This document shows, piece by piece, positions 2 to 30,950 of a stretch of DNA of 35,626 nt. Position 1 is the first letter of the stretch. Each line of letters starts with the position of its first letter. The notes under the pieces were generated by a model, which saw only the letters and a program-made list of their open reading frames with translations, did not search any database and was not told where the DNA came from. The stretch is from Candidatus Omnitrophota bacterium (GTDB lineage: Bacteria; Omnitrophota; Gorgyraeia; Gygaellales; Profunditerraquicolaceae). Location: assembly GCA_016208765.1 (NCBI GenBank), contig JACQXK010000044.1, positions 1 to 35,626 of the forward strand, read 5' to 3'. Position numbers and translations under genes: made by a program.

Positions 2-1231
2 CAGAATGTTATTCTAAACGGGATCGTTCAAGGGTTCTCAAGAGATGAAATGAATGCAAAAATCCCTCAGATAGAGGAGTTTGCAGATATAGGTGAATTT
101 TTTGACCAGCCTGTGAAAATTTATTCTTCAGGCATGTTTGTGAGGCTTGCATTTGCAGCGGCTATTAATGTTGACCCTGATATACTTATTGTAGACGAGG
201 CTCTAGCTGTTGGTGATGCGAAGTTTCAGCATAAATGCTACAATAAATTTCTCGAATTTCAGGAAAAGGGCAAGACCATCTTGTTTGTCAGTCACAGCAC
301 AGACGCTATTGTTAGGCATTGTGACAATGCCGTTTTGCTTGAGGGCGGCAGAGCGATAGAAAGTGGCGAGCCGAAGACAGTAACAAACTACTACATTGAC
401 CTCCTGTTTACAGGCAAAATACACGGCTATTCATCAACTCCCGTTTTAGTTGAAGAAGGATATAGAGGATTCAATATCGTTCATACCGGAACTAAATACT
501 ACGCATTTTCACAATCTCTCGGGCCGATGGACCTTACGCGTCCGTTTGAAAATGAATTGTACAAATATATAGTTGATCATAAGTGTGCGGTCGGGTCGTC
601 ATTGGAGGAGGTAAGACTGCTTGTGGATAAAACGGTTTCTCTGGAAATTGATATTTCAAATCAGGCAGTCGAAGTTCCCCCTAAAAAAGAGATAACAGAG
701 TTGGAGAGGTTTCTCGAAGAAATCCCCGAAGGGGATAACTGCGTAAATAGGAGGAGCTATAATAAGAATGAATATAGGTATGGCGACAGACGAGCGGAGA
801 TTATAGATTATTTAATTGTATCAGTCGATAAATACGACACTGTTACGATAAATTCCGGAGATGTAGTGGATATATATGTGAAGTATAAATTCCATGAGAA
901 TATGGAGTCTCCAATATTCGGGTTTGCAGTAAAGACAATTGACGGTGTGATTATATACGGTAATAACACGCGGATTGGCAGGATTGTGGTGCCCCCTGTG
1001 CATAAAAACGATATCATTATAACAAAATGGACTTTTAATCTTATTGCAAATAGCGGTGACCTGTTTTTAAATCTTGGTGTAGCAGAAAAATTGGATATAG
1101 ATGTTCCGATTGACAATAGAAAAGATATTATTCATTTGCGTATCCAGACCTTGGCTGATTTCGTAGGGTTGGTAAATTTAAAGACAACTTATCAGGAGAT
1201 TTCAAGAAAAGAAATGGTGGTTATTTCATGA
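2..1231 (+). CDS. wzt: Wzt-type polysaccharide ABC exporter ATPase, 5'-partial
   Basis: ATP-binding subunit of an O-antigen/polysaccharide ABC exporter. The frame is open to the window edge, so Walker A and the true start lie outside; the Met at 50 is internal. Visible are the ABC signature (YSSGMFVRLAFA), Walker B (ILIVDEALAVGD) and the switch His (LFVSHS). Nucleotides about 443-628 then encode a short module (GYRGFNIV, SLGPMDL) that is not part of the ATPase. The last ~160 residues resemble the beta-sandwich carbohydrate-binding domain of Wzt proteins, which recognises the finished glycan end (known for the family). The permease partner Wzm is not in the window and is presumably upstream. 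The stop overlaps the next start as ATGA. The family call is secure; the placement of the extra module between ATPase and C-terminal domain is unusual. Confidence 0.9.
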   Translation, partial: QNVILNGIVQGFSRDEMNAKIPQIEEFADIGEFFDQPVKIYSSGMFVRLAFAAAINVDPDILIVDEALAVGDAKFQHKCYNKFLEFQEKGKTILFVSHSTDAIVRHCDNAVLLEGGRAIESGEPKTVTNYYIDLLFTGKIHGYSSTPVLVEEGYRGFNIVHTGTKYYAFSQSLGPMDLTRPFENELYKYIVDHKCAVGSSLEEVRLLVDKTVSLEIDISNQAVEVPPKKEITELERFLEEIPEGDNCVNRRSYNKNEYRYGDRRAEIIDYLIVSVDKYDTVTINSGDVVDIYVKYKFHENMESPIFGFAVKTIDGVIIYGNNTRIGRIVVPPVHKNDIIITKWTFNLIANSGDLFLNLGVAEKLDIDVPIDNRKDIIHLRIQTLADFVGLVNLKTTYQEISRKEMVVIS

Positions 1232-1950: not shown

Positions 1951-3189
1951 GTGAATATGAAAAATGATAATCCAAAATATCTTGTTGTTGGCCCCCCTCG
2001 TGGTGGTTTTACACTATTAATCAGTGTTATAAACGAGTTGTATCGTTTAAAAAATATTCAGAAGGACGAGATTCAGAATACGGTAAACCACTTTGTTCCA
2101 TTGGCAGGCGAATTTGTTTCCACGTCAATGGATAACTTTTTCAAAAAATATATTAGTTTGGAAGATTTATTTTACTCGGGCGAGTTTAGGAAAGTTCTTG
2201 TCGGCGGTCCGAAGTGGCTGGATAATAATGATACAAATACGATGTGCGTAAGAAAATATCTCGGAGTTAAAGGTTTGGGGGATTTTACTTTTATCCAGTA
2301 CCACCCGCGATTTTTATTGGACTATGATGAGGTTGTCCATTCGCATAACCATCCGAGCCTCTGGCAGGAACATCCTGACTTCGCGGATTATATGAAATTC
2401 GCGTCAATCAGAAACCCGATGGATATTATTCATTCCTCCGTTTATTCGATTAATGCCCTCGCAAGCGAATATATTCAGCGGTGTGTATCGGAAGACGAAA
2501 CTACCATTAGACATAAATTAGCTCTAAACAAGTTTACAAATCCAGACTTTATGGAGGGACTGGTTATTTATCTTGTTAATTATTTGAAAGATTTTTTACC
2601 CGTAAAGAATAAATTTCTATATGTGATGAAATGGGAGGATTTAATCTTTATGCCTGTAGATACAATTTTAAAAATTGCATATGCAGGAGGTTTTAATATT
2701 ACAGGGTCAACTGCGGAAGATATTTGGGAGAAGATTCAATATAGAAACCTTACAAGATGGCACAGGCATAGTTTCAGGAAAGGTGCAATAGGTGATTGGA
2801 AATTAAGTATTACCAATACCCATCTGGAATTGTTTAAGACCTATGGTTTCGACGAATTTCTTGAGGAATTGGGTTACGAGAAAATTAATTATTTTAAAGA
2901 GACCGATTATACACCGATACAAAAGACAATTGAAGAATATTTAAAAAAAGGTAAGATATATAAACCTCACGAGGACGATGACCTATACACATTTGCGTTC
3001 AATAAGACAAACCTTACATCTTCAAAATTCCCATTTAAATCATACACGCGAATTGGAGATGTTTTTATAGAACGCTCAACATTTAAGGATGAATCCATAA
3101 TCCGCGGGATTGTAGAGGTTATCGGTAATGCGGTCGGCATTGCAAACCGCTTTTTGACTGAAATAAGAAAGGTTCATACAATATTGTGA
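1951..3189 (+). CDS. Sulfotransferase-like protein with divergent P-loop
   Basis: Sulfotransferase-fold protein of about 412 aa. The 5'-phosphosulfate loop near residues 11-24 reads VVGPPRGGFTLLI; the usual Ser and first Thr of PRSGTT are Gly and Phe. A plausible 3'-phosphate-binding segment, SIRNPMDIIHSSVYS, lies near residue 151. PAPS-dependent sulfation of a sugar is the expected activity, but the loop changes make it uncertain. The start is GTG 1951 or ATG 1957, with no strong ribosome-binding site for either. The C-terminus is notable: the last 28 nt (3162-3189) are also open in the frame of the next gene, where they encode the beginning of a module recognised elsewhere. The present C-terminus RKVHTIL may therefore be the product of a frameshift. 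Confidence 0.7.
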   Translation: MNMKNDNPKYLVVGPPRGGFTLLISVINELYRLKNIQKDEIQNTVNHFVPLAGEFVSTSMDNFFKKYISLEDLFYSGEFRKVLVGGPKWLDNNDTNTMCVRKYLGVKGLGDFTFIQYHPRFLLDYDEVVHSHNHPSLWQEHPDFADYMKFASIRNPMDIIHSSVYSINALASEYIQRCVSEDETTIRHKLALNKFTNPDFMEGLVIYLVNYLKDFLPVKNKFLYVMKWEDLIFMPVDTILKIAYAGGFNITGSTAEDIWEKIQYRNLTRWHRHSFRKGAIGDWKLSITNTHLELFKTYGFDEFLEELGYEKINYFKETDYTPIQKTIEEYLKKGKIYKPHEDDDLYTFAFNKTNLTSSKFPFKSYTRIGDVFIERSTFKDESIIRGIVEVIGNAVGIANRFLTEIRKVHTIL

Positions 3190-4661
3190 AGATGAATAAT
3201 AAATGCTATGGCGTTCCACAGAGACTCGGTCCGATGGATATTCAGAAAATAGATTTTAATTTATACCCGTCGATTATTCATGGAGACAGTATAGATATGG
3301 TTAAAAACATAATATATAAAAGAACGGGGTTGAATTTACAATTTTATAATCCGGAAGGAGATGCCCTGTTTGAAAATATCGGCAAACTTATCAAGAAGGG
3401 TTATGAAAAATTTTTTTTAATGAATCGGGACGAGAAAAGCGGCTACCTCAAAAAGAAATTTCAGGATGCGGGACAACCGGTTTTTTATACAAAAGAGGAT
3501 TTCAGCGATCCTGAATCGAGTAATGCAGATGTAATCGTGATAACGGAAACAAATACTAATATCGTTTCCGAACTCCTCCTTGATTTCTTAAATCTTCGGA
3601 AAGGTATTATATTAGCCCCCGTAACGGAGAGGCATTATAGTAATCAAACCGTTTTTATCTCATGTATTCCGAAGTCTGGCACACATATGCTTATTAAGAT
3701 GCTTGAGATTATGGGGATTCGACAAAATTTATCCTCTTTGCCCTGTAAGGGTAAATGGAATGTTGTCCCCGAATATTCATACCACACACCGTGTAAGAGA
3801 TTCGTCGAGGAGCAGTTTTTAAATGCCTTTCTTCCTATGGGTAAACACCCTTTATTTTATTCACCGGTTATCTTTATGTATCGTAATCCACTTGATATAC
3901 TTGTATCGGAAGTGTCATGGTTTCAAAGGCAATCGGAGGTCGTCTCTAACTATTTGAACGGTTTTGAAGATTTGGACTCTAAATTATCGAGTCTTATAGA
4001 TGACCGATTCGTATTAGGTAATATCCGTGAAAGAATGCTTAAATATATCGGCTGGTTGGACTTTACAAATGCGATACCGGTAAGTTACGAAGAGTTAGTA
4101 GGATCCGGAGGCGGTGGAAATGATGAGCATCAGATAAGGTCGATCTGGTCTATTCAGCTTAAATTACATATACAGGGTTGTCCTCATGAGATTGCCCCTA
4201 ACATATATGATGTAAATAGTCCCACCTTTACAAAAGGCAGGATAGGACGGCATAAGGAAGTATTAAAAGAACTTCATTACAAAAAGTTTCTGGAATTACC
4301 TCAGGATTTCATGGAAAAGATGGGCTATGATAGCGATATCCTATATTCGAGGCACGTAGAAGGATTTAGACAAAGACCATTAAAAATGGGATATTATTCA
4401 TCGGAAGCTGAACTCTGGCAGCAGAGATTGATAAAAGAATCTTTTTATGGTTTTAACATTGTCTATGCCGGCGGGCAATATGTCGTCCTTGATAAATCCT
4501 TAGGCAATATTGACTTATCAATAGATTCTAATCGTAATCGAGAGGGAGTATATTTAGGTTTCGGCAGTTATGAGGATGCCTTGGCTTTTGCAATCCTTGA
4601 AGAGTGCAAAAAAAATAGAGAGACCTCGAAAAAAGAGATTGAAAATAAACATGCAATATAG
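3186..4661 (+). CDS. Sulfotransferase with flanking GFNIV/LGPMDL modules
   Basis: Sulfotransferase of about 491 aa. Residues 7-45 begin with CYGVPQRLGPMDI, part of the module also seen in wzt. Residues ~45-150 form an unassigned alpha/beta segment. The sulfotransferase core starts with VFISCIPKSGTHML (canonical 5'-phosphosulfate loop), followed by FMYRNPLDILVSEVSW as the 3'-phosphate-binding segment. Residues ~415-475 carry a second, complete module (YGFNIV, SLGNIDL). The start is GTG 3186 overlapping the previous stop, or ATG 3192. The same frame is open upstream to 3162 and reads GSYNIV directly before the annotated start, so the N-terminal module looks cut off by the gene boundary. The likely role is sulfation of the polysaccharide. 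Core confidence is high; module function is unknown. Confidence 0.75.
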   Translation: MKMNNKCYGVPQRLGPMDIQKIDFNLYPSIIHGDSIDMVKNIIYKRTGLNLQFYNPEGDALFENIGKLIKKGYEKFFLMNRDEKSGYLKKKFQDAGQPVFYTKEDFSDPESSNADVIVITETNTNIVSELLLDFLNLRKGIILAPVTERHYSNQTVFISCIPKSGTHMLIKMLEIMGIRQNLSSLPCKGKWNVVPEYSYHTPCKRFVEEQFLNAFLPMGKHPLFYSPVIFMYRNPLDILVSEVSWFQRQSEVVSNYLNGFEDLDSKLSSLIDDRFVLGNIRERMLKYIGWLDFTNAIPVSYEELVGSGGGGNDEHQIRSIWSIQLKLHIQGCPHEIAPNIYDVNSPTFTKGRIGRHKEVLKELHYKKFLELPQDFMEKMGYDSDILYSRHVEGFRQRPLKMGYYSSEAELWQQRLIKESFYGFNIVYAGGQYVVLDKSLGNIDLSIDSNRNREGVYLGFGSYEDALAFAILEECKKNRETSKKEIENKHAI

Positions 4662-5257: not shown

Positions 5258-5336
5258 GCTTAATTATTATATTCGAATAAATGGTTAATTAACTTTAGCC
5301 GGCGTCGCCAAAATATATTTGGGGGTTTGCTTTTTT

Positions 5337-7031
5337 ATGAACGGCATTAATAAAAATATCTTTATTAAATTTTTGAAATCTTTAATCCCTGTTGCTATAA
5401 AGCAAAAGATAAAAAAACTGAAGTGGGTAAACAGATTTTACAAGAGTAACGATTACGATTTTGCCCAGTATAAATTGGCAGGTGGTTACCCGTGCGAGAT
5501 TCCTCCCTTAGATGTGGAACCAAACCTGGATTTTCTTGTACTTGAACTGCCTCCCAGATATATGCCGTTTATGCCGAATGGTTTGGGGTATCTCTATAAT
5601 ATTCTGCTGAAATGTAATATTAACTTTCAGATCCTCGATGTGAATATAAGTCTTTATCACAAGTATCATGAAAATAGGCTGCGGAATAATCTTAAAAATA
5701 TTTCGACACCAAACGGATATGTATTGCCGAGGGACCCATGGGATAATACTAATACGAATGAGTGGGTCAAGGATGATCTGGTCGATTATTTCTGGCCCGA
5801 CATCGAACCCCTTATCGAAAAAATAAAGGTTAATCCCCCAAAGGCACTCGGAATCTCTCTGAGCGGGTTTAATAGAAAACTGGCAAAGCGTTTTATAAAA
5901 TCGGTCAAGGAAAAAAATCCGGAGATTATCATCATTGTAGGCGGGTATGATTGTACGTATAAAGATTTAGGTTCTGTTTTATTCCCGGATTTTGATTACA
6001 TGGTGATAGGTGAGGCTGAGGTTACTCTTAAACCGCTGATGGATGCCGTTTTTTTAAAGGGAGAAACGGTTAAGGATTTACCCGGGATTATTTCTCGTTT
6101 CGATACTACCGATAGGGTCTGGACTGCCCCTGTGCTTGAGGATATCGATGAAATTGACTGGCCGAAATACCAGTGGGCAAAACATTATTGGTATCAGACT
6201 TATGATAGACGGCACCTTATTCCTATAACAGGCAGCCGCGGTTGTAAGTGGGGCAGATGCAGATTTTGCGCAGAGCGTTTCTATTTTCGCAGGAGAGACC
6301 CCGTTAGGGTGGTAGATGAGATGGAGCACTTTACAAAACTTGGTTTTCATACATTCCATTTCAACGAGAGTGATGTTAATGGAGACCCCCAAAATCTTTA
6401 TGATATTTGCAGTGGAATAATCGAAAGAAATTTAAAGGTCAATTTAGTTGGACAATTGAGAATTGACCGTAGAAATACTGCGGAATACCTCGGTCATCTG
6501 GCAATGGCCGGATTTAAGCATCTGAGATTCGGGGTTGACGGCTGGAATGATAGGCTACTGGTGTTAATGAGGAAAGGTTATAATATGAATCTGGCTTTCC
6601 AAAATTTGCAAGACTGTCACGGTGCCGGTATCGTTACCACAGTTAATATGGTTATCGGTATTCCCGGAGAGACGGAAGAAGATATCGACGAATGTATTGC
6701 CAATTTTATTAAATGCAAGGCTTTTATCCATTCCGTTGAAAGCTTTAATACCTTGCTTCTTGCATGCGGCAGTGAGTATTATCATAATCCTGAACAGTAT
6801 AAGATTAAATTCAGGTGGCATAAAGATGACATTTATAAGAGATATGCAGACTATATACCTACGGCTTTATGGTACAGCGAAGACCCATATATAGATCAGG
6901 AGGTCAGGTTGAATCGTCTCGATAAGATACTCGATAAGCTCTATCTAAACGGTGTAAACATAGGTCCCTTTGCAACAAAGGTAATAGAAAGACTCAAAAA
7001 TAGGGCACCGGAGGCGGATTTTAGGCCATAG
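5337..7031 (+). CDS. B12-binding-domain radical SAM protein
   Basis: Radical SAM enzyme of about 564 aa with an N-terminal cobalamin-binding-like Rossmann domain (residues ~55-240; GISLSGFN, IIIIVGGYDCTYKD, MVIGEAEVTLKPL). The core begins ITGSRGCKWGRCRFCAERF, with cluster cysteines at about 303, 308 and 311. This is CX4CX2C rather than the usual CX3CX2C. No DxHxxG motif is seen, as is common in the BchE-like branch. Known relatives do methylations and other radical chemistry on lipids, sugars or peptides; the context suggests a sugar or lipid substrate. ATG 5337 is preferred, with GGGGG 11 nt upstream; an in-frame TTG at 5319 is less likely. The next gene starts 5 nt after the stop. Confidence 0.8.
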   Translation: MNGINKNIFIKFLKSLIPVAIKQKIKKLKWVNRFYKSNDYDFAQYKLAGGYPCEIPPLDVEPNLDFLVLELPPRYMPFMPNGLGYLYNILLKCNINFQILDVNISLYHKYHENRLRNNLKNISTPNGYVLPRDPWDNTNTNEWVKDDLVDYFWPDIEPLIEKIKVNPPKALGISLSGFNRKLAKRFIKSVKEKNPEIIIIVGGYDCTYKDLGSVLFPDFDYMVIGEAEVTLKPLMDAVFLKGETVKDLPGIISRFDTTDRVWTAPVLEDIDEIDWPKYQWAKHYWYQTYDRRHLIPITGSRGCKWGRCRFCAERFYFRRRDPVRVVDEMEHFTKLGFHTFHFNESDVNGDPQNLYDICSGIIERNLKVNLVGQLRIDRRNTAEYLGHLAMAGFKHLRFGVDGWNDRLLVLMRKGYNMNLAFQNLQDCHGAGIVTTVNMVIGIPGETEEDIDECIANFIKCKAFIHSVESFNTLLLACGSEYYHNPEQYKIKFRWHKDDIYKRYADYIPTALWYSEDPYIDQEVRLNRLDKILDKLYLNGVNIGPFATKVIERLKNRAPEADFRP

Positions 7032-7036
7032 AAAAT

Positions 7037-7963
7037 ATGCGATACATTATTGAAAATAAAACAGATGTACGGATAAAACCGAAAATAAGCATAATATTAT
7101 TGGATTGGAAAGTAAGAGAAAGCTTTCATACAATTCAGTATCTCAACCGGCAAGATATCAATAGAGACGCATATGAGATCATCTGGGTCGAATTTTATGA
7201 CTATGTTGCAAAACCCCTCTTAAATCTTATCGAAGACTGCAAACTTTCTAACCTTCCGATGCCTATCGACCAATGGCTTGTTTTGGAATATCCGGATAGT
7301 TTTTACTATCACAAGCATGTTATGTATAACGCGGGCATTTTATATGCTAAAGGGGATATCATCGTTATCATGGACTCCGATGCAATTGTAAAAACCGATT
7401 TTCTAAGTTTTATAATAAATGAATTCAATAAAAATCCGGATATGATTCTCCACATCGAAGAGATACGAAATTTTGACCATAAATTTTATCCTTTTTCTTA
7501 TCCGACATTAGAAGAGATATTGGGCGGTAGTATAGCAATGCCCTATGAAGTTAAGGTATTTAATACAACCGAGATTAATCTGGGCAATTCTATGATCAGC
7601 CTTAAGGAAAATCCCGATCTGATTCATGTTTATAATTATGGTGCGTGTTTATGTGTAAGGCGGGATAATGTTATAGCGATAGGCGGAGCAGATGAGCATA
7701 TAGATTATTTAGGACACATATGCGGTCCTTATGAGATGACATTTAGACTTATTAATGCAGGATTTGAGGATAAGTTGCATCCCTCTTATTTTATATACCA
7801 TGTATACCATCCGAATCAGGGCGGCGATAATAATTACTGCGGGCCGAATAATGGGAGGGGTGTTTCTACAACCGCTTTAGCGATATCTAAGGAGGGCAGG
7901 TTTTTACCTCTGAAGGAAAATGAGGATATTAAAAAAATACGCACTGAAGGCCGGTTACCGTAA
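7037..7963 (+). CDS. Family 2-like glycosyltransferase
   Basis: Glycosyltransferase of 308 aa with GT-A features. It opens with KISIILLDWKVRESF, followed by YEIIWVE and then GDIIVIMDSDAIV near residue 107, where DSD is the metal/nucleotide-binding DXD. Later GGADEHIDYLGHICGPYEMT marks an acceptor-side region. It is a clear paralogue of the first ~275 residues of the gene at 15618-17078 (same GGADEHIDYLGHICGPYEMT block), but lacks that protein's C-terminal tail. It sits between a radical SAM protein and an SDR gene, and its last 44 nt overlap the SDR start. Donor and acceptor sugars are unknown. Confidence 0.8.
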   Translation: MRYIIENKTDVRIKPKISIILLDWKVRESFHTIQYLNRQDINRDAYEIIWVEFYDYVAKPLLNLIEDCKLSNLPMPIDQWLVLEYPDSFYYHKHVMYNAGILYAKGDIIVIMDSDAIVKTDFLSFIINEFNKNPDMILHIEEIRNFDHKFYPFSYPTLEEILGGSIAMPYEVKVFNTTEINLGNSMISLKENPDLIHVYNYGACLCVRRDNVIAIGGADEHIDYLGHICGPYEMTFRLINAGFEDKLHPSYFIYHVYHPNQGGDNNYCGPNNGRGVSTTALAISKEGRFLPLKENEDIKKIRTEGRLP

Positions 7964-14886: not shown

Positions 14887-15135
14887 ATGAAATGGGATGA
14901 GTTTATTCCATTGGAATTTGAGTATGATTGGGAAAAGGATAAACTCGGAGAACATGAAGTTACGTTTGAAGAAGCAGTCGAAGCCTTTTTTAATGATTTC
15001 GAGATCAGAAGAAACAAGAGGTTCAGGGATCGCTGGCAGTTAATCGGTCGGACTGACAGCGGACGAAGATTAAAAATAATCTTTCAACTTAAATCTGGCA
15101 ATGTTGTCAGAATAATTACGGGATGGCAGATATGA
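14887..15135 (+). CDS. brnT: BrnT-like type II toxin
   Basis: Small protein of 82 aa matching the BrnT family of RelE-fold ribonuclease toxins. FEYDWEKDKLGEHEVTFEEA corresponds to the family start FxWDxxKxxxNxxKHGVSFEEA. Later RWQLIGRTDSGRRLKIIF and VRIITGW match the strand pair with basic residues. In BrnTA systems the toxin comes first and the antitoxin follows, as here. The cassette sits between polysaccharide genes in the same orientation and is flanked by short direct repeats, which suggests later insertion. Confidence 0.8.
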   Translation: MKWDEFIPLEFEYDWEKDKLGEHEVTFEEAVEAFFNDFEIRRNKRFRDRWQLIGRTDSGRRLKIIFQLKSGNVVRIITGWQI

Positions 15136-15404
15136 AACAAAAAAGAAGATTAACAGAGGAAGAAATTGACAGGTTGGTTGTTACAGAGGCAAATGATATG
15201 AGTAAGTGGGGAAAACCTATAGCCGTCAAGCCCACATCAATTCGTTTTTCACCTCCAATAATAGAAAAGGCAAAATATTTTGCCAAACTTCATAAAACGC
15301 GGGGTTATCGGACATGGTTAAATCAGATTGTGGAAGAACGTATTAAGCTTGAAGAAAAACTCCTCAGTGATTTTAAGCGAGAATTAAGAGCGGCAAGCAA
15401 ATAA
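15132..15404 (+). CDS. brnA: BrnA/CopG-like antitoxin
   Basis: Basic protein of 90 aa that follows the BrnT-like toxin and overlaps its stop by 4 nt (ATG 15132; an ATG at 15123 also exists). IRFSPPIIEKAKYFAKLHKTRG and YRTWLNQIVEERIKLEE fit a ribbon-helix-helix DNA-binding and dimerisation unit as in BrnA/CopG antitoxins. It should neutralise the toxin and repress the pair. The call rests on gene order plus general shape. Confidence 0.75.
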   Translation: MKQKRRLTEEEIDRLVVTEANDMSKWGKPIAVKPTSIRFSPPIIEKAKYFAKLHKTRGYRTWLNQIVEERIKLEEKLLSDFKRELRAASK

Positions 15405-15617: not shown

Positions 15618-17078
15618 ATGAAAATTTTATTTGACAATAAAAATAATATTCCCCCCAAGATAAGCATCGTTCTTCTCGACTGGTCATGCAGGGAGAGTTT
15701 TCATTCCCTTGACTATCTCAATAACCAGACGGTGAGTAGAGAACAGTATGAGATAATATGGATTGAATACTACAGCAGGCGTTCACCGGAGATTGAGGTA
15801 AAACTAAAAGAGTGCGAACGATTAGGTAAGCCGCCCATTATTGACAGGTGGATAGCAGCGGATATGCCTGATAACGTGTGTTCTCATAAACATCTTATGT
15901 ACAATATCGGCATAGCGGCAAGTAAGGGAGAGATCATATGTTTCTGTGATTCGGATGCCGTATTCAGCCCGACCTTTGTGGAAAGCATAATCAAGGCATT
16001 TGAAGCAGACAGAAATATTGTATTGCAAATCGATGAGGTGAGAAATATAGATAAAAGGTTTTATCCTTTCAAGTATCCGGCTATTGAGGAGATACTGGGG
16101 GGAGGGTGTATAAACTGGAAAGATGACCGGACCATTGGACTGCTGGATAAAGAAGATCCTTTGCATACAAGGAACTATGGTGCTTGTATGTGTGCCCTGC
16201 GCCAGGACCTCATAAGTATAGGCGGTGCAGACGAGCATATAGATTATCTGGGACATATTTGCGGACCGTATGAAATGACATTCAGGTTAGTCAACTATGG
16301 GAAAAAAGAAATATGGCATCAAGGCGAGTTTATATATCATGTATGGCATCCCGGGACCGATGGAAAGGATAATTACTTGGGTCCGCATGATGGGAAAAAC
16401 ATGTCAACAACTGCTCTCGATATTATAAAAACAGGAAGATCGATGTCTTTTGTCGAAAATCCTGCGATCAGGGCACTCAGGTTAAATAGAAATTATGTAA
16501 TTGCAAATGAGGAATTGATAACATTTGCTGTAACCGGAAGAGATGTTAATGAATGGTCGGCGGAGAGATTAAGAGTTAAAAAAAGACGGGAAAACACTTT
16601 TTTTAAATATTTGAGAAATTATTTCACGGCAGCGACATATGTTGGTTTATTGTGGAAGCAGGTCTCTACAAAAATGGGCAGGGCGTTGAGTTCACCGAAT
16701 CCTTTAAGATATATCTTTAATAAAATATATAAAATACCGGCCATAATGAAAAATATGGTTCTGCATAATTCAAATATCTATGAAAGATGCGGCAAGGCAA
16801 TCCAGGACATTGTCTCAAGGGGAATTACGGAAATATCTATCTGCGGCACCGGCGATGAGGCGAGGGTACTGTATAAATTGATTGACAGCAGGCTAAAAGT
16901 TAAAGCAGTTTTTGATTTGTCAAATGGGAAAACATTTTTTAACCACAATATTGCCTCGATTGAGGAAATAAAAAATTACAATGACATATTTGTTGTGACC
17001 AATCTCAATAATGCAAATGAAATATTAGGAATACTAAAAAAAATGGACGTGCCTAAAAACAATATTATTGTTATATGA
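15618..17078 (+). CDS. Family 2-like glycosyltransferase with C-terminal Rossmann-like domain
   Basis: Protein of 486 aa. Residues 1-275 are a GT-A glycosyltransferase paralogous to the gene at 7037-7963: KISIVLLDWSCRESFHSLDY, then FCDSDAV near residue 112 as DXD, then GGADEHIDYLGHICGPYEMT. Residues ~275-385 are a linker. The last ~100 residues form a Rossmann-like unit beginning ISICGTGDEARVLYKLID and ending NNIIVI. It is similar in style to the C-terminal domains of sugar C-methyltransferases and PglD-like proteins; its ligand is unknown. ATG 15618 lacks a strong ribosome-binding site. The stop overlaps the next gene by 4 nt. Confidence 0.78.
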   Translation: MKILFDNKNNIPPKISIVLLDWSCRESFHSLDYLNNQTVSREQYEIIWIEYYSRRSPEIEVKLKECERLGKPPIIDRWIAADMPDNVCSHKHLMYNIGIAASKGEIICFCDSDAVFSPTFVESIIKAFEADRNIVLQIDEVRNIDKRFYPFKYPAIEEILGGGCINWKDDRTIGLLDKEDPLHTRNYGACMCALRQDLISIGGADEHIDYLGHICGPYEMTFRLVNYGKKEIWHQGEFIYHVWHPGTDGKDNYLGPHDGKNMSTTALDIIKTGRSMSFVENPAIRALRLNRNYVIANEELITFAVTGRDVNEWSAERLRVKKRRENTFFKYLRNYFTAATYVGLLWKQVSTKMGRALSSPNPLRYIFNKIYKIPAIMKNMVLHNSNIYERCGKAIQDIVSRGITEISICGTGDEARVLYKLIDSRLKVKAVFDLSNGKTFFNHNIASIEEIKNYNDIFVVTNLNNANEILGILKKMDVPKNNIIVI

Positions 17079-21475: not shown

Positions 21476-21688
21476 ATGCAAGCTATTAGAAAGATAGTAG
21501 ATGTTGATGCTATAAGCAGTGTAATTAACATCCCGGAGACTTTTGGCAAGAAAGTAGAAATGATTGTATTGCCTTTATTTAACGACCTGGAATTGACATC
21601 TGAAGACATGATGAAGTTGCAAGAGGGAAGCGGGTTTATAAAGGCTATTTTTGAAAGCAAAAAAGAGGATGTCTGGAATAATGTATAA
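21476..21688 (+). CDS. Small antitoxin of the PemK/MazF-type pair
   Basis: Protein of 70 aa. [20 protein letters not shown] with [10 protein letters not shown] resembles short antitoxins found before PemK/MazF toxins. GAGGAGGG sits seven bases upstream of ATG 21476. The stop overlaps the toxin-RfbH fusion start (TAATG at 21686-21690), the usual coupling in such pairs. If the fused toxin domain is active, this protein would be needed to hold it in check. Confidence 0.6.
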
Positions 21689-23373
21689 TGAAGTACAAAG
21701 GTAAGATTTTTAAGATCCCCTTTCCCTTTACAAATCTAAAAGGGAAGAAGGTTCGCCCTGCCCTTGCTGTGTCTGAGCCGGATGAATATGGAGATATGGA
21801 GTTTCTATTCATTACAACAAAAGAGACCAGAGGTTTTGACAGGACGCTTGATATTCCCGCCGGGCTTTTACCTTTTGAGTCCATCTTGCATGTTGAGAAA
21901 AGATATCTGTTAAATAAATCAATAATTATGGACGAAATGGCCGAGGTTGATAAGGACTTTCTGGCAAAGGTTTTAAAGGAGATAACATTTAACGATACTG
22001 TTAACTATTATCTTACAATCCATAAACCCAACCAGTACTCGGAGTTTGTCCCCAGCAAATCAAAGATCAGCTATGCAGGGCGTATATTTGATGAAAAAGA
22101 GATGATTAATCTTGTTGACAGCAGTCTTGATTTCTGGCTTACCACTGGAAAGTATACGGAAAGGTTTGAGAAGGAATTTGCAGAATTTCTGGGGGTCAAG
22201 TATTGCTCTCTTACCAATTCCGGTTCTTCTGCTAATCTCATTGCATTTATGACATTAACATCTCCCAAGCTTGGCGAGAGAAGGATTAAAAAGGGTGATG
22301 AGGTTATTACCGTAGCAGCAGGTTTTCCGACGACTGTTGCTCCCATTATACAATATGGTGCTATACCTGTGTTTGTTGATATAACTTTGCCTACTTACAA
22401 TATCGATTGTTCACAGCTTAAAACAGCACTGTCAGATAAAACAAAGGCAGTAATGCTGGCCCATACTCTCGGAAATCCTTTTGATATTAAAGCTGTTAAA
22501 GATTTTTGTGATACACATAATCTCTGGTTCATTGAGGATAACTGTGATGCTCTTGGTTCAAGCTATATCTACAACGGAGAATGGAGATATACCGGCACAT
22601 TTGGTGATATTGCCACATCCAGTTTTTATCCTCCTCATCATATGACAATGGGTGAAGGCGGTGCTGTATATACCAATGATGTTCAACTTAAGCGAATAGT
22701 GGACTCCTTCCGTGATTGGGGAAGGGACTGCTGGTGTCCTTCAGGGCATGATGATACCTGCAAAAAGAGATTTGATTGGCAGCTCGGTGAATTACCCTAC
22801 GGATATGACCACAAATATGTTTATTCCCATTTCGGGTATAATCTCAAGGTTACAGATATGCAGGCGGCAATAGGATGCGCACAACTGGGCAAATTACCTT
22901 CCTTTATTGAGGCAAGGAAAAAGAACTGGAAGCTTTTGAGAGATGGTCTCTCTAACTTGCCTGACAGATTTATTTTGCCTGAACCAACGCCGAATTCTGA
23001 CCCGAGCTGGTTCGGGTTTTTGCTTACAGTAAGGGAGAATGCGGGTTTTACGAGAGACGAGATGGTGAATAATCTTGAAACAAATGGAATTCAGACAAGG
23101 ATGCTCTTTGCAGGGAATCTTATTAAGCATCCATGCTTTGATGAAATGAGGAAAAACGGACAGGGCTTCAGAATTGTTAACCCACCTTCACACCATCACA
23201 CTTTCTCAAGTTCTCAACTTCTTAACTTTTCAACTTCTGCCTTGCCGAATACCGACCGTGTCATGCGGGATACATTCTGGATTGGGGTATATCCGGGAAT
23301 AAGAGAGGAAATGTTATCATATATAGCAGAAAAGATAAGAGACTTTGTAAAAGGGAGAGTCCAAAATGGTTAA
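21688..23373 (+). CDS. rfbH: Fusion of PemK/MazF-like toxin and RfbH-type CDP-4-keto-6-deoxyglucose 3-dehydrase
   Basis: Single frame of 561 aa. Residues 1-108 are a complete-looking PemK/MazF domain ([26 protein letters not shown], then LAKVLKEI). Residues ~118-561 match RfbH/E1, a PMP- and [2Fe-2S]-dependent enzyme that removes the 3-OH of CDP-4-keto-6-deoxyglucose on the route to 3,6-dideoxyhexoses. Diagnostic features are His317 replacing the PLP Lys ([14 protein letters not shown]) and cluster cysteines 286 (IEDNCDALG), 348, 350 and 358 ([13 protein letters not shown]). RfbH normally starts ~25 residues before FVPSKS; that piece is replaced by the toxin. No good internal start for RfbH alone is visible. 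Residues ~500-521 are a simple-repeat insertion. Partner enzymes RfbF/RfbG are not in the window. Confidence 0.88.
23203..23238 (+). repeat. Octamer simple repeat inside rfbH
   Basis: Four and a half consecutive 8-mers: TTCTCAAG, TTCTCAAC, TTCTTAAC, TTTTCAAC, TTCT. With the preceding ACCATCACAC they replace the two or three residues that normally join RIV to LPNTDRVM, adding about 19 residues in frame. Confidence 0.75.
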
Positions 23374-28575: not shown

Positions 28576-28824
28576 ATGCTTACAAAGTATATACAAAAGG
28601 CAATGGAACATGCCCGCTATGAGATACTCTCTGATGATGGGACATTTTATGGTGAAATTCCTGAATGCCCGGGCGTTTATGCAAATGCAGATACATTAGA
28701 GAAATGCAGAAATGAGTTGGAGGAGGTTTTAGAGGAGTGGATATTATTCCGAATTTATAAAAATCTTCCAATTCCCGAGATAGATGGGTTAGAAATAAAA
28801 ATCAGGGAAGAGGTTGCTGCCTAA
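28576..28824 (+). CDS. hicB: HicB-family antitoxin
   Basis: HicB-like protein of 82 aa. ARYEILSDDGTFYGEIPECP followed by GVYANADTLEKCRNELEEVL is the family's partial RNase H-like fold, with EIDGLEIKI near the end. GGAG lies upstream of ATG 28576. Its stop overlaps the hicA start by 1 nt. The toxin partner is broken, so this is now an orphan antitoxin. Confidence 0.82.
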   Translation: MLTKYIQKAMEHARYEILSDDGTFYGEIPECPGVYANADTLEKCRNELEEVLEEWILFRIYKNLPIPEIDGLEIKIREEVAA

Positions 28825-30357: not shown

Positions 30358-30687
30358 ATGAATGATGAACTGCTTGCGACGATCAAGAAATTTGCAAATG
30401 AGGGATGCTACCGTATAAAAATTCATGCTGTTAGGCATATGATAGAGGAAGGTTTTTCAGAGAAAGACATAATTGCCGCAATACTCGGAGAAAGCAGGAT
30501 AATCGAAATGTATGATGAGGATAAAAGGTGCTTGATATTAGGACATTTTCTGTGGGATAATAAAACAAAATCGCCAATCCATGTGGTTTGTGATTATTCA
30601 AATAGAAAACTTATGGATATTGTGACAGCATATATTCCACAAAGACCTTGGTGGATATCGCCAACGCAAAGAGGGAGAAGATCATGA
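30358..30687 (+). CDS. DUF4258 protein, probable toxin
   Basis: Protein of 109 aa. YRIKIHAVRHMIEEGFSEKD, then IIEMYDEDKRCLILG and IHVVCDY, match the DUF4258 pattern (basic start, H-A-x-x-R-M, central acidic stretch). DUF4258 proteins commonly pair with a YgiT/MqsA-type zinc-finger antitoxin, which is the next gene and overlaps by 4 nt. The C-terminus (TAYIPQRPWWISP) is longer than some relatives. It sits between a methyltransferase and a radical SAM gene in the same direction. Confidence 0.7.
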   Translation: MNDELLATIKKFANEGCYRIKIHAVRHMIEEGFSEKDIIAAILGESRIIEMYDEDKRCLILGHFLWDNKTKSPIHVVCDYSNRKLMDIVTAYIPQRPWWISPTQRGRRS

Positions 30688-30950
30688 GAAAAATAGATGC
30701 ATCTAAAGAACCATGCTCTGAATGCGGCGGTAGACTTGAACGGAAACATATCACTCAGGAATTTGAGCGCGAAGGGGTTAAAGTTAATCTATCGGGCATT
30801 GCTGCTTTGGTTTGCGCTGATTGTGGAGAAATATATTTTCAGCCTGGTGGTGCCGATAAGGTTGCCGCTGCAGCAAATTCACTTTTTAGCCTTGCTGTTA
30901 CAGAAAAACAACACAAATGCTCGTTAACCGCCCAGATATGTCAAGCATGA
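30684..30950 (+). CDS. YgiT/MqsA-type zinc-finger antitoxin
   Basis: Protein of 88 aa. CSECGG and CADCGE form the zinc-binding CxxC pairs of YgiT-type fingers, and EREGVKVNLSGIAALVC is typical between them. It lacks a helix-turn-helix domain. ATG 30684 overlaps the DUF4258 stop, and GAGGGAGAAG is the ribosome-binding site. The C-terminal ~20 residues (EKQHKCSLTAQICQA) look unrelated to the family and may be extended by mutation. Confidence 0.72.
   Translation: MRKIDASKEPCSECGGRLERKHITQEFEREGVKVNLSGIAALVCADCGEIYFQPGGADKVAAAANSLFSLAVTEKQHKCSLTAQICQA

Follow-up and report, generated by a model that had tools for sequence, protein, structure and literature searches.

The stretch ahead of the second of two adjacent sulfotransferase genes is best explained, at a probability of roughly 0.6, as the former C-terminal module of the first sulfotransferase, severed from it by a change in length that broke the frame. 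Compared with the gene pair of the relative G473, about 163 nt are absent, and these hold the linker together with the module's first strand. Sulfotransferase 1 therefore stops seven residues past the break, leaving the rest of the module in frame before sulfotransferase 2. A single step, a change in length by about 163 nt, accounts for both frame and truncation; the loss of one base would not. The junction is an ordinary gene-breaking event and not a new coding trick.

The locus and its two sulfotransferase genes

The window, meaning the whole stretch of 35,626 nt analysed here, is the entire contig C31 of a draft genome (2.41 Mb in 121 contigs, 95% complete, 4.9% contamination). The contig starts already inside its first gene, wzt, which is followed downstream by a methyltransferase, the two sulfotransferases, radical SAM proteins, glycosyltransferases and sugar-nucleotide enzymes. 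Sulfotransferase 1 (ORF1, 412 aa) lies at 1951-3189 on the forward strand and matches PF00685 (E 1.3e-5), with a complete catalytic domain and the C-terminal module absent. The open reading frame ORF2 runs from a candidate GTG start at 3186 to 4661 on the same strand. Counted from the ATG at 3297, it encodes sulfotransferase 2 (3297-4661, forward strand; PF00685, E 9.6e-5), in which an N-terminal region of about 110 aa precedes the catalytic domain. The PF00685 scores of the two genes, 25.2 and 22.3 bits, are both above the cut-off of 22 bits. The catalytic-type segments RGGFTLL/RNPMDIIHSS and PKSGTHML/RNPLDILVSE are largely conserved in the G473 homologues, and because of this conservation both sulfotransferases are probably still working enzymes. 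An AlphaFold model of ORF2 alone reached a pLDDT of 35 and was unusable.

No related locus was found in the other 107 genomes of the same family that were searched. A contig search across genomes with ORF2 as the query gave no relative, and neither ORF1 nor ORF2 gave anything useful against plasmids, phages and viral contigs. Together with the draft state of the source (121 contigs, 4.9% contamination), the lack of a family counterpart is what speaks for a junction made by local misassembly or strain mixing in the metagenome-assembled genome. Such an artefact is nevertheless very hard to credit, as the codon signal is smooth on either side of the junction, the gene order is that of G473 and the junction region is present in a single copy within the source assembly.

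Several other features of the source genome were recorded. Another tandem pair of sulfotransferase genes lies elsewhere in it (G000:C51:1796-3299). At 21688-23373 of the window, a DegT/RfbH-type aminotransferase begins, in one continuous frame, with a PemK/MazF-like domain; this part (E 0.0017) is under the Pfam cut-off and looks like a toxin gene fusion. In addition, small toxin-antitoxin-like genes are scattered within the polysaccharide cluster (14887-15404, 28576-28824 and 30358-30950), the kinds being BrnT, HicB-like/UPF0150 and a pair of DUF4258 with a zinc-ribbon MqsA-like protein.

A module remnant ahead of sulfotransferase 2

Upstream, the ORF2 frame ends at a TGA (3159-3161), so that its open part begins at 3162 and not at 3159. 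Its upstream stretch reads NKKGSYNIVKMNNKCYGVPQRLGPMDI and holds no ATG, GTG or TTG ahead of 3186. That the frame, open upstream of the GTG, encodes a module with no start codon before the GTG was confirmed by translation and by profile scores. Using a leave-one-out module profile from which the 3162-frame copy had been omitted, the score was 42.9 bits when the match began at 3162 and 29.8 bits when it began at the GTG, the upstream residues contributing 13 bits; of 2000 random 8-mers put in their place, 1 reached the observed score. As the earlier note saw, the module begins upstream of the GTG at 3186, and this is more than chance.

The remnant (3171-3323, forward strand; profile positions 8-60) reads GSYNIVKMNNKCYGVPQRLGPMDI..., then a helix, and matches the C-terminal module of G473 sulfotransferase 1. 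The tail of that protein, used as a query, hits window positions 3174-3278 in the ORF2 frame with an E-value of 1.2e-8 and 51% identity, and the match extends upstream of the GTG. However, the remnant is without the conserved first strand, which is kept by 17 of the 17 other confident copies. The profile match starts at position 1-4 in those copies and at position 10 in the remnant; they lie at least 147 residues into their frames, whereas the remnant lies five residues in. The module core is 59% identical between the window and G473, no lower than sulfotransferase 1 itself (57%). By eye the tail of ORF1 (SYTRIGDVFIERSTF...FLTEI) seemed to contain a module-like repeat, but this scored no better than shuffles and was rejected. 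An ORF1-frame prefix completing the module was likewise discarded, as it adds nothing and 631 of 2000 random prefixes do equally well.

G473, the sole relative found with both genes, is itself a draft genome of 660 contigs with 8% contamination. At its locus L078 the two sulfotransferase genes stand side by side in the same order as in the window. Sulfotransferase 1 of G473 (L078:4537-6126, 529 aa) ends ...NDAIPILVGEYKAYNIVKIRKEHYAVPQSLGPMDL..., followed by the module, in its own frame, so that this homologue holds in one frame both parts of what is broken in the window, as would be expected for a gene whose frame was broken by an indel. The search for homologues of sulfotransferase 1 ending with the module, which had been suggested as a check, was thereby positive. 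Because in G473 the module is read in frame at the end of this protein, it represents the sulfotransferase 1 tail, and the segment before ATG 3297 reads as a tail fragment of that enzyme. Sulfotransferase 2 of G473 (597 aa, 43% identical; L078:6113-7906) is a separate gene with a start at ATG 6113 and a good ribosome-binding site, and the two genes overlap by 14 nt in different frames. The number of C-terminal modules of sulfotransferase 2 varies, with three in G473 and one in the window (4425-4661; profile match at 4425-4601, forward strand).

ORF1 is 57% identical to G473 sulfotransferase 1 over 399 residues and is colinear with it as far as FL at 3151-3156. From the FL codons (window 3151, L078 5755) to the YNIV codons (3177 and 5944) the distance is 26 nt in the window and 189 nt in L078. 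The alignment of the two loci is colinear save for this 163-nt gap, which spans the linker together with the first module strand. By alignment and codon signal the frame break is placed at 3157-3176 (forward strand), 20 nt compared with 183 nt in the relative, i.e. 163 nt shorter or 1 mod 3. The residues of ORF1 past the break, RKVHTIL, are its last ones. The ORF1 frame has the better codon usage until about 3170, the ORF2 frame from about 3160 onwards.

The earlier proposal that one base separates the module from sulfotransferase 1 therefore holds in part: the frame is cut and the module belongs with sulfotransferase 1, but 163 nt and the first strand are missing as well. A single split protein made of both genes is not what is seen in G473, which has two separate proteins. 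The frame relations differ from those of G473 at two places, before the module and between the module and sulfotransferase 2, and therefore at least two events separate the window and L078 loci. With one relative, itself a draft, and two loci compared, the change may be either a deletion in the window lineage, which we infer, or an insertion in G473. These points weigh against the severed-module explanation.

The frame break and the start of sulfotransferase 2

Both enzymes would still be made separately, since both sulfotransferase domains stay open and recognisable. Sulfotransferase 1 would lack its module, and sulfotransferase 2 would be translated from 3297, possibly also by coupling from 3186. 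The ribosome-binding site of ATG 3297, with CATGGAGA (3279-3299, forward strand; -6.4 kcal/mol, spacing 10), is the strongest among the in-frame candidates, and that of the G473 start has a value of -6.5. ATG 3297 is homologous to ATG 6113 in L078 and lies near the position of that start. About 8% of random places reach -6.0 kcal/mol or better, and 22% reach the value of GTG 3186 (-3.7 kcal/mol, spacing 12). Judged from these signals, ATG 3297 rather than GTG 3186 is the likeliest start of sulfotransferase 2. For the annotation this means a correction: the second sulfotransferase probably starts at ATG 3297, and the stretch preceding it would be a fragment of the first.

The GTG candidate lies on the TGA stop of ORF1 in a GTGA overlap (3186-3189, forward strand), and the two genes could be read as ordinary translationally coupled genes, with sulfotransferase 2 starting at GTG 3186 and carrying a short N-terminal module. 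Four-base overlaps do occur elsewhere in the operon, between wzt and the methyltransferase (1228-1231) and at 17075-17078. However, a GTGA overlap is unremarkable, as it arises at a TGA stop after any base but C, and the ribosome-binding site at GTG 3186 is weak, with a better one at ATG 3297. Moreover, the module begins ahead of the GTG and no other module copy is N-terminal, which makes simple coupling improbable.

Since the open frame of the module continues into sulfotransferase 2, an intermediate protein made of sulfotransferase 1, the module and sulfotransferase 2 may plausibly have existed. A related possibility is that such a protein of about 900 aa is the true product today, the linker having been shortened in frame and one base having been misread by a sequencing or consensus error. 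It agrees with the coding-like codon signal throughout the common open frame, with a module core that shows no decay, and with proteins known to have modules between catalytic domains (the 1706-aa frame in L040) or before an APS kinase (L009). The well-kept core also counts against the severed-module explanation, as it would equally be expected if the break were very recent, if the junction were a sequencing error or if the joined frame were still translated. On the other hand, G473 encodes two separate proteins, and the site is a run of three A only, while window genes hold 258 longer homopolymers (5-9 nt), every one of them in an open frame. No frame change was seen in the other window genes with homologues in the loci tested, and even if the parts were joined, the module would still be without its first strand. 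For frame transitions that are unclustered and homology-validated, the expected cause is a sequencing error and not a true indel (PMC3711429); because of this expectation, a joined protein hidden by an error is kept as an unlikely yet serious alternative to the severed module.

The earlier note also raised a -1 frameshift product. Here programmed ribosomal slippage at A_AAG (3168-3171, forward strand, in the ORF1 frame) would yield some fusion of sulfotransferase 1, the module and sulfotransferase 2 beside sulfotransferase 1. By the motif rules of PMC4066793 this tetramer is the sole slippery motif at the junction, with no X_XXZ_ZZN heptamer, and slippage at it would lead precisely into the module frame. 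In E. coli no tetramer shifts more readily than A_AAG given a pseudoknot, but tetramers of this type hardly shift if a stimulator is lacking (PMC4066793). In pseudoknot-free folding, the downstream RNA did not stand out in stability against shuffles, with z-scores of -0.03 (80 nt) and -1.23 (121 nt). The frame relation is also not conserved, since in G473, the one relative, the module is in the sulfotransferase 1 frame. Frameshifting at this site is thus quite improbable, and the severed module is preferred.

The module as a recurring unit and comparison with known systems

Of greater interest than the break, which is ordinary, is the uncatalogued module. It spans about 60 aa and reads roughly P.LVE.Y.GYNIV....KYYA..QSLGPVDL, then a helix. 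In none of the module-bearing proteins tested is it covered by a Pfam, NCBIfam or PHROGs model. Its sequence pattern has two matches in the window and none among viral contigs. The copy in wzt (GFNIV...SLGPMDL at 458-553), already pointed out in the earlier note, was confirmed, and a further copy was found at the C-terminus of ORF2. The profile match in wzt covers 440-631 (forward strand), between the ABC and Wzt_C domains. A structure model of this copy (pLDDT 72) has three strands followed by helices and found no match in the PDB.

The module recurs, often in tandem, in polysaccharide-cluster proteins of the phylum of the window and of Azospirillum, its hosts being Wzt, sulfotransferases, methyltransferases, glycosyltransferases and radical SAM proteins. 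A sample of 384 phylum genomes gave 8 with a match at E <= 0.01, of which the weakest is doubtful, and one more genome of the class also has the module. The location between ABC and Wzt_C is shared by the window and G154, in which the module also follows a methyltransferase. In G112 it is present in a radical SAM protein and in a 1706-aa frame (L040) with the order radical SAM-module-GT2-GT2-module-methyltransferase. Other module-bearing proteins were found in G119, G230 and G247, and a further module locus is L041:11986-12300. Radical SAM and GT2 proteins are separate in the window (5319-7963) and form one 1040-aa frame in G247 (L067:4288-7407).

In Azospirillum the module was found in a glycosyltransferase and before an APS kinase. 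The latter protein, encoded on a plasmid of Azospirillum lipoferum (L009:5190-7799, 869 aa), has two modules and then the APS kinase domain; its N-terminal part is sulfotransferase-like by eye, with no Pfam match. We tentatively suggest, as a speculation less likely to be right than wrong, that the uncatalogued module serves as a mobile unit for docking or glycan binding, common to the exporter ATPase Wzt and the tailoring enzymes of surface-polysaccharide clusters, and that at the window locus it was passed from the C-terminal end of one enzyme to the N-terminal end of its neighbour. If this is true, enzyme partnerships in a surface-polysaccharide assembly line would be rewired by module exchange.

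The window pair resembles other PF00685 sulfotransferase gene pairs in that both genes match the domain, and the adjacency and order are the same in G473. It differs from them by the uncatalogued module and by the N-terminal region of about 110 aa in sulfotransferase 2. With the IS1/IS3-type genes that use programmed -1 frameshifting (PMC4066793) the junction shares an A_AAG at the right place and in the right frame, but it has neither a stimulator that we found, nor conservation, nor a mobile element. The junction is also comparable to frame-disrupted genes and pseudogenised C-termini, such as the singleton frame transitions of GeneTack (PMC3711429), in that a frame transition supported by homology on either side is seen in one genome only. 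In contrast to these singletons, a linker-sized stretch is also missing here, and the severed part is a recurring module that stands in frame with the next gene.
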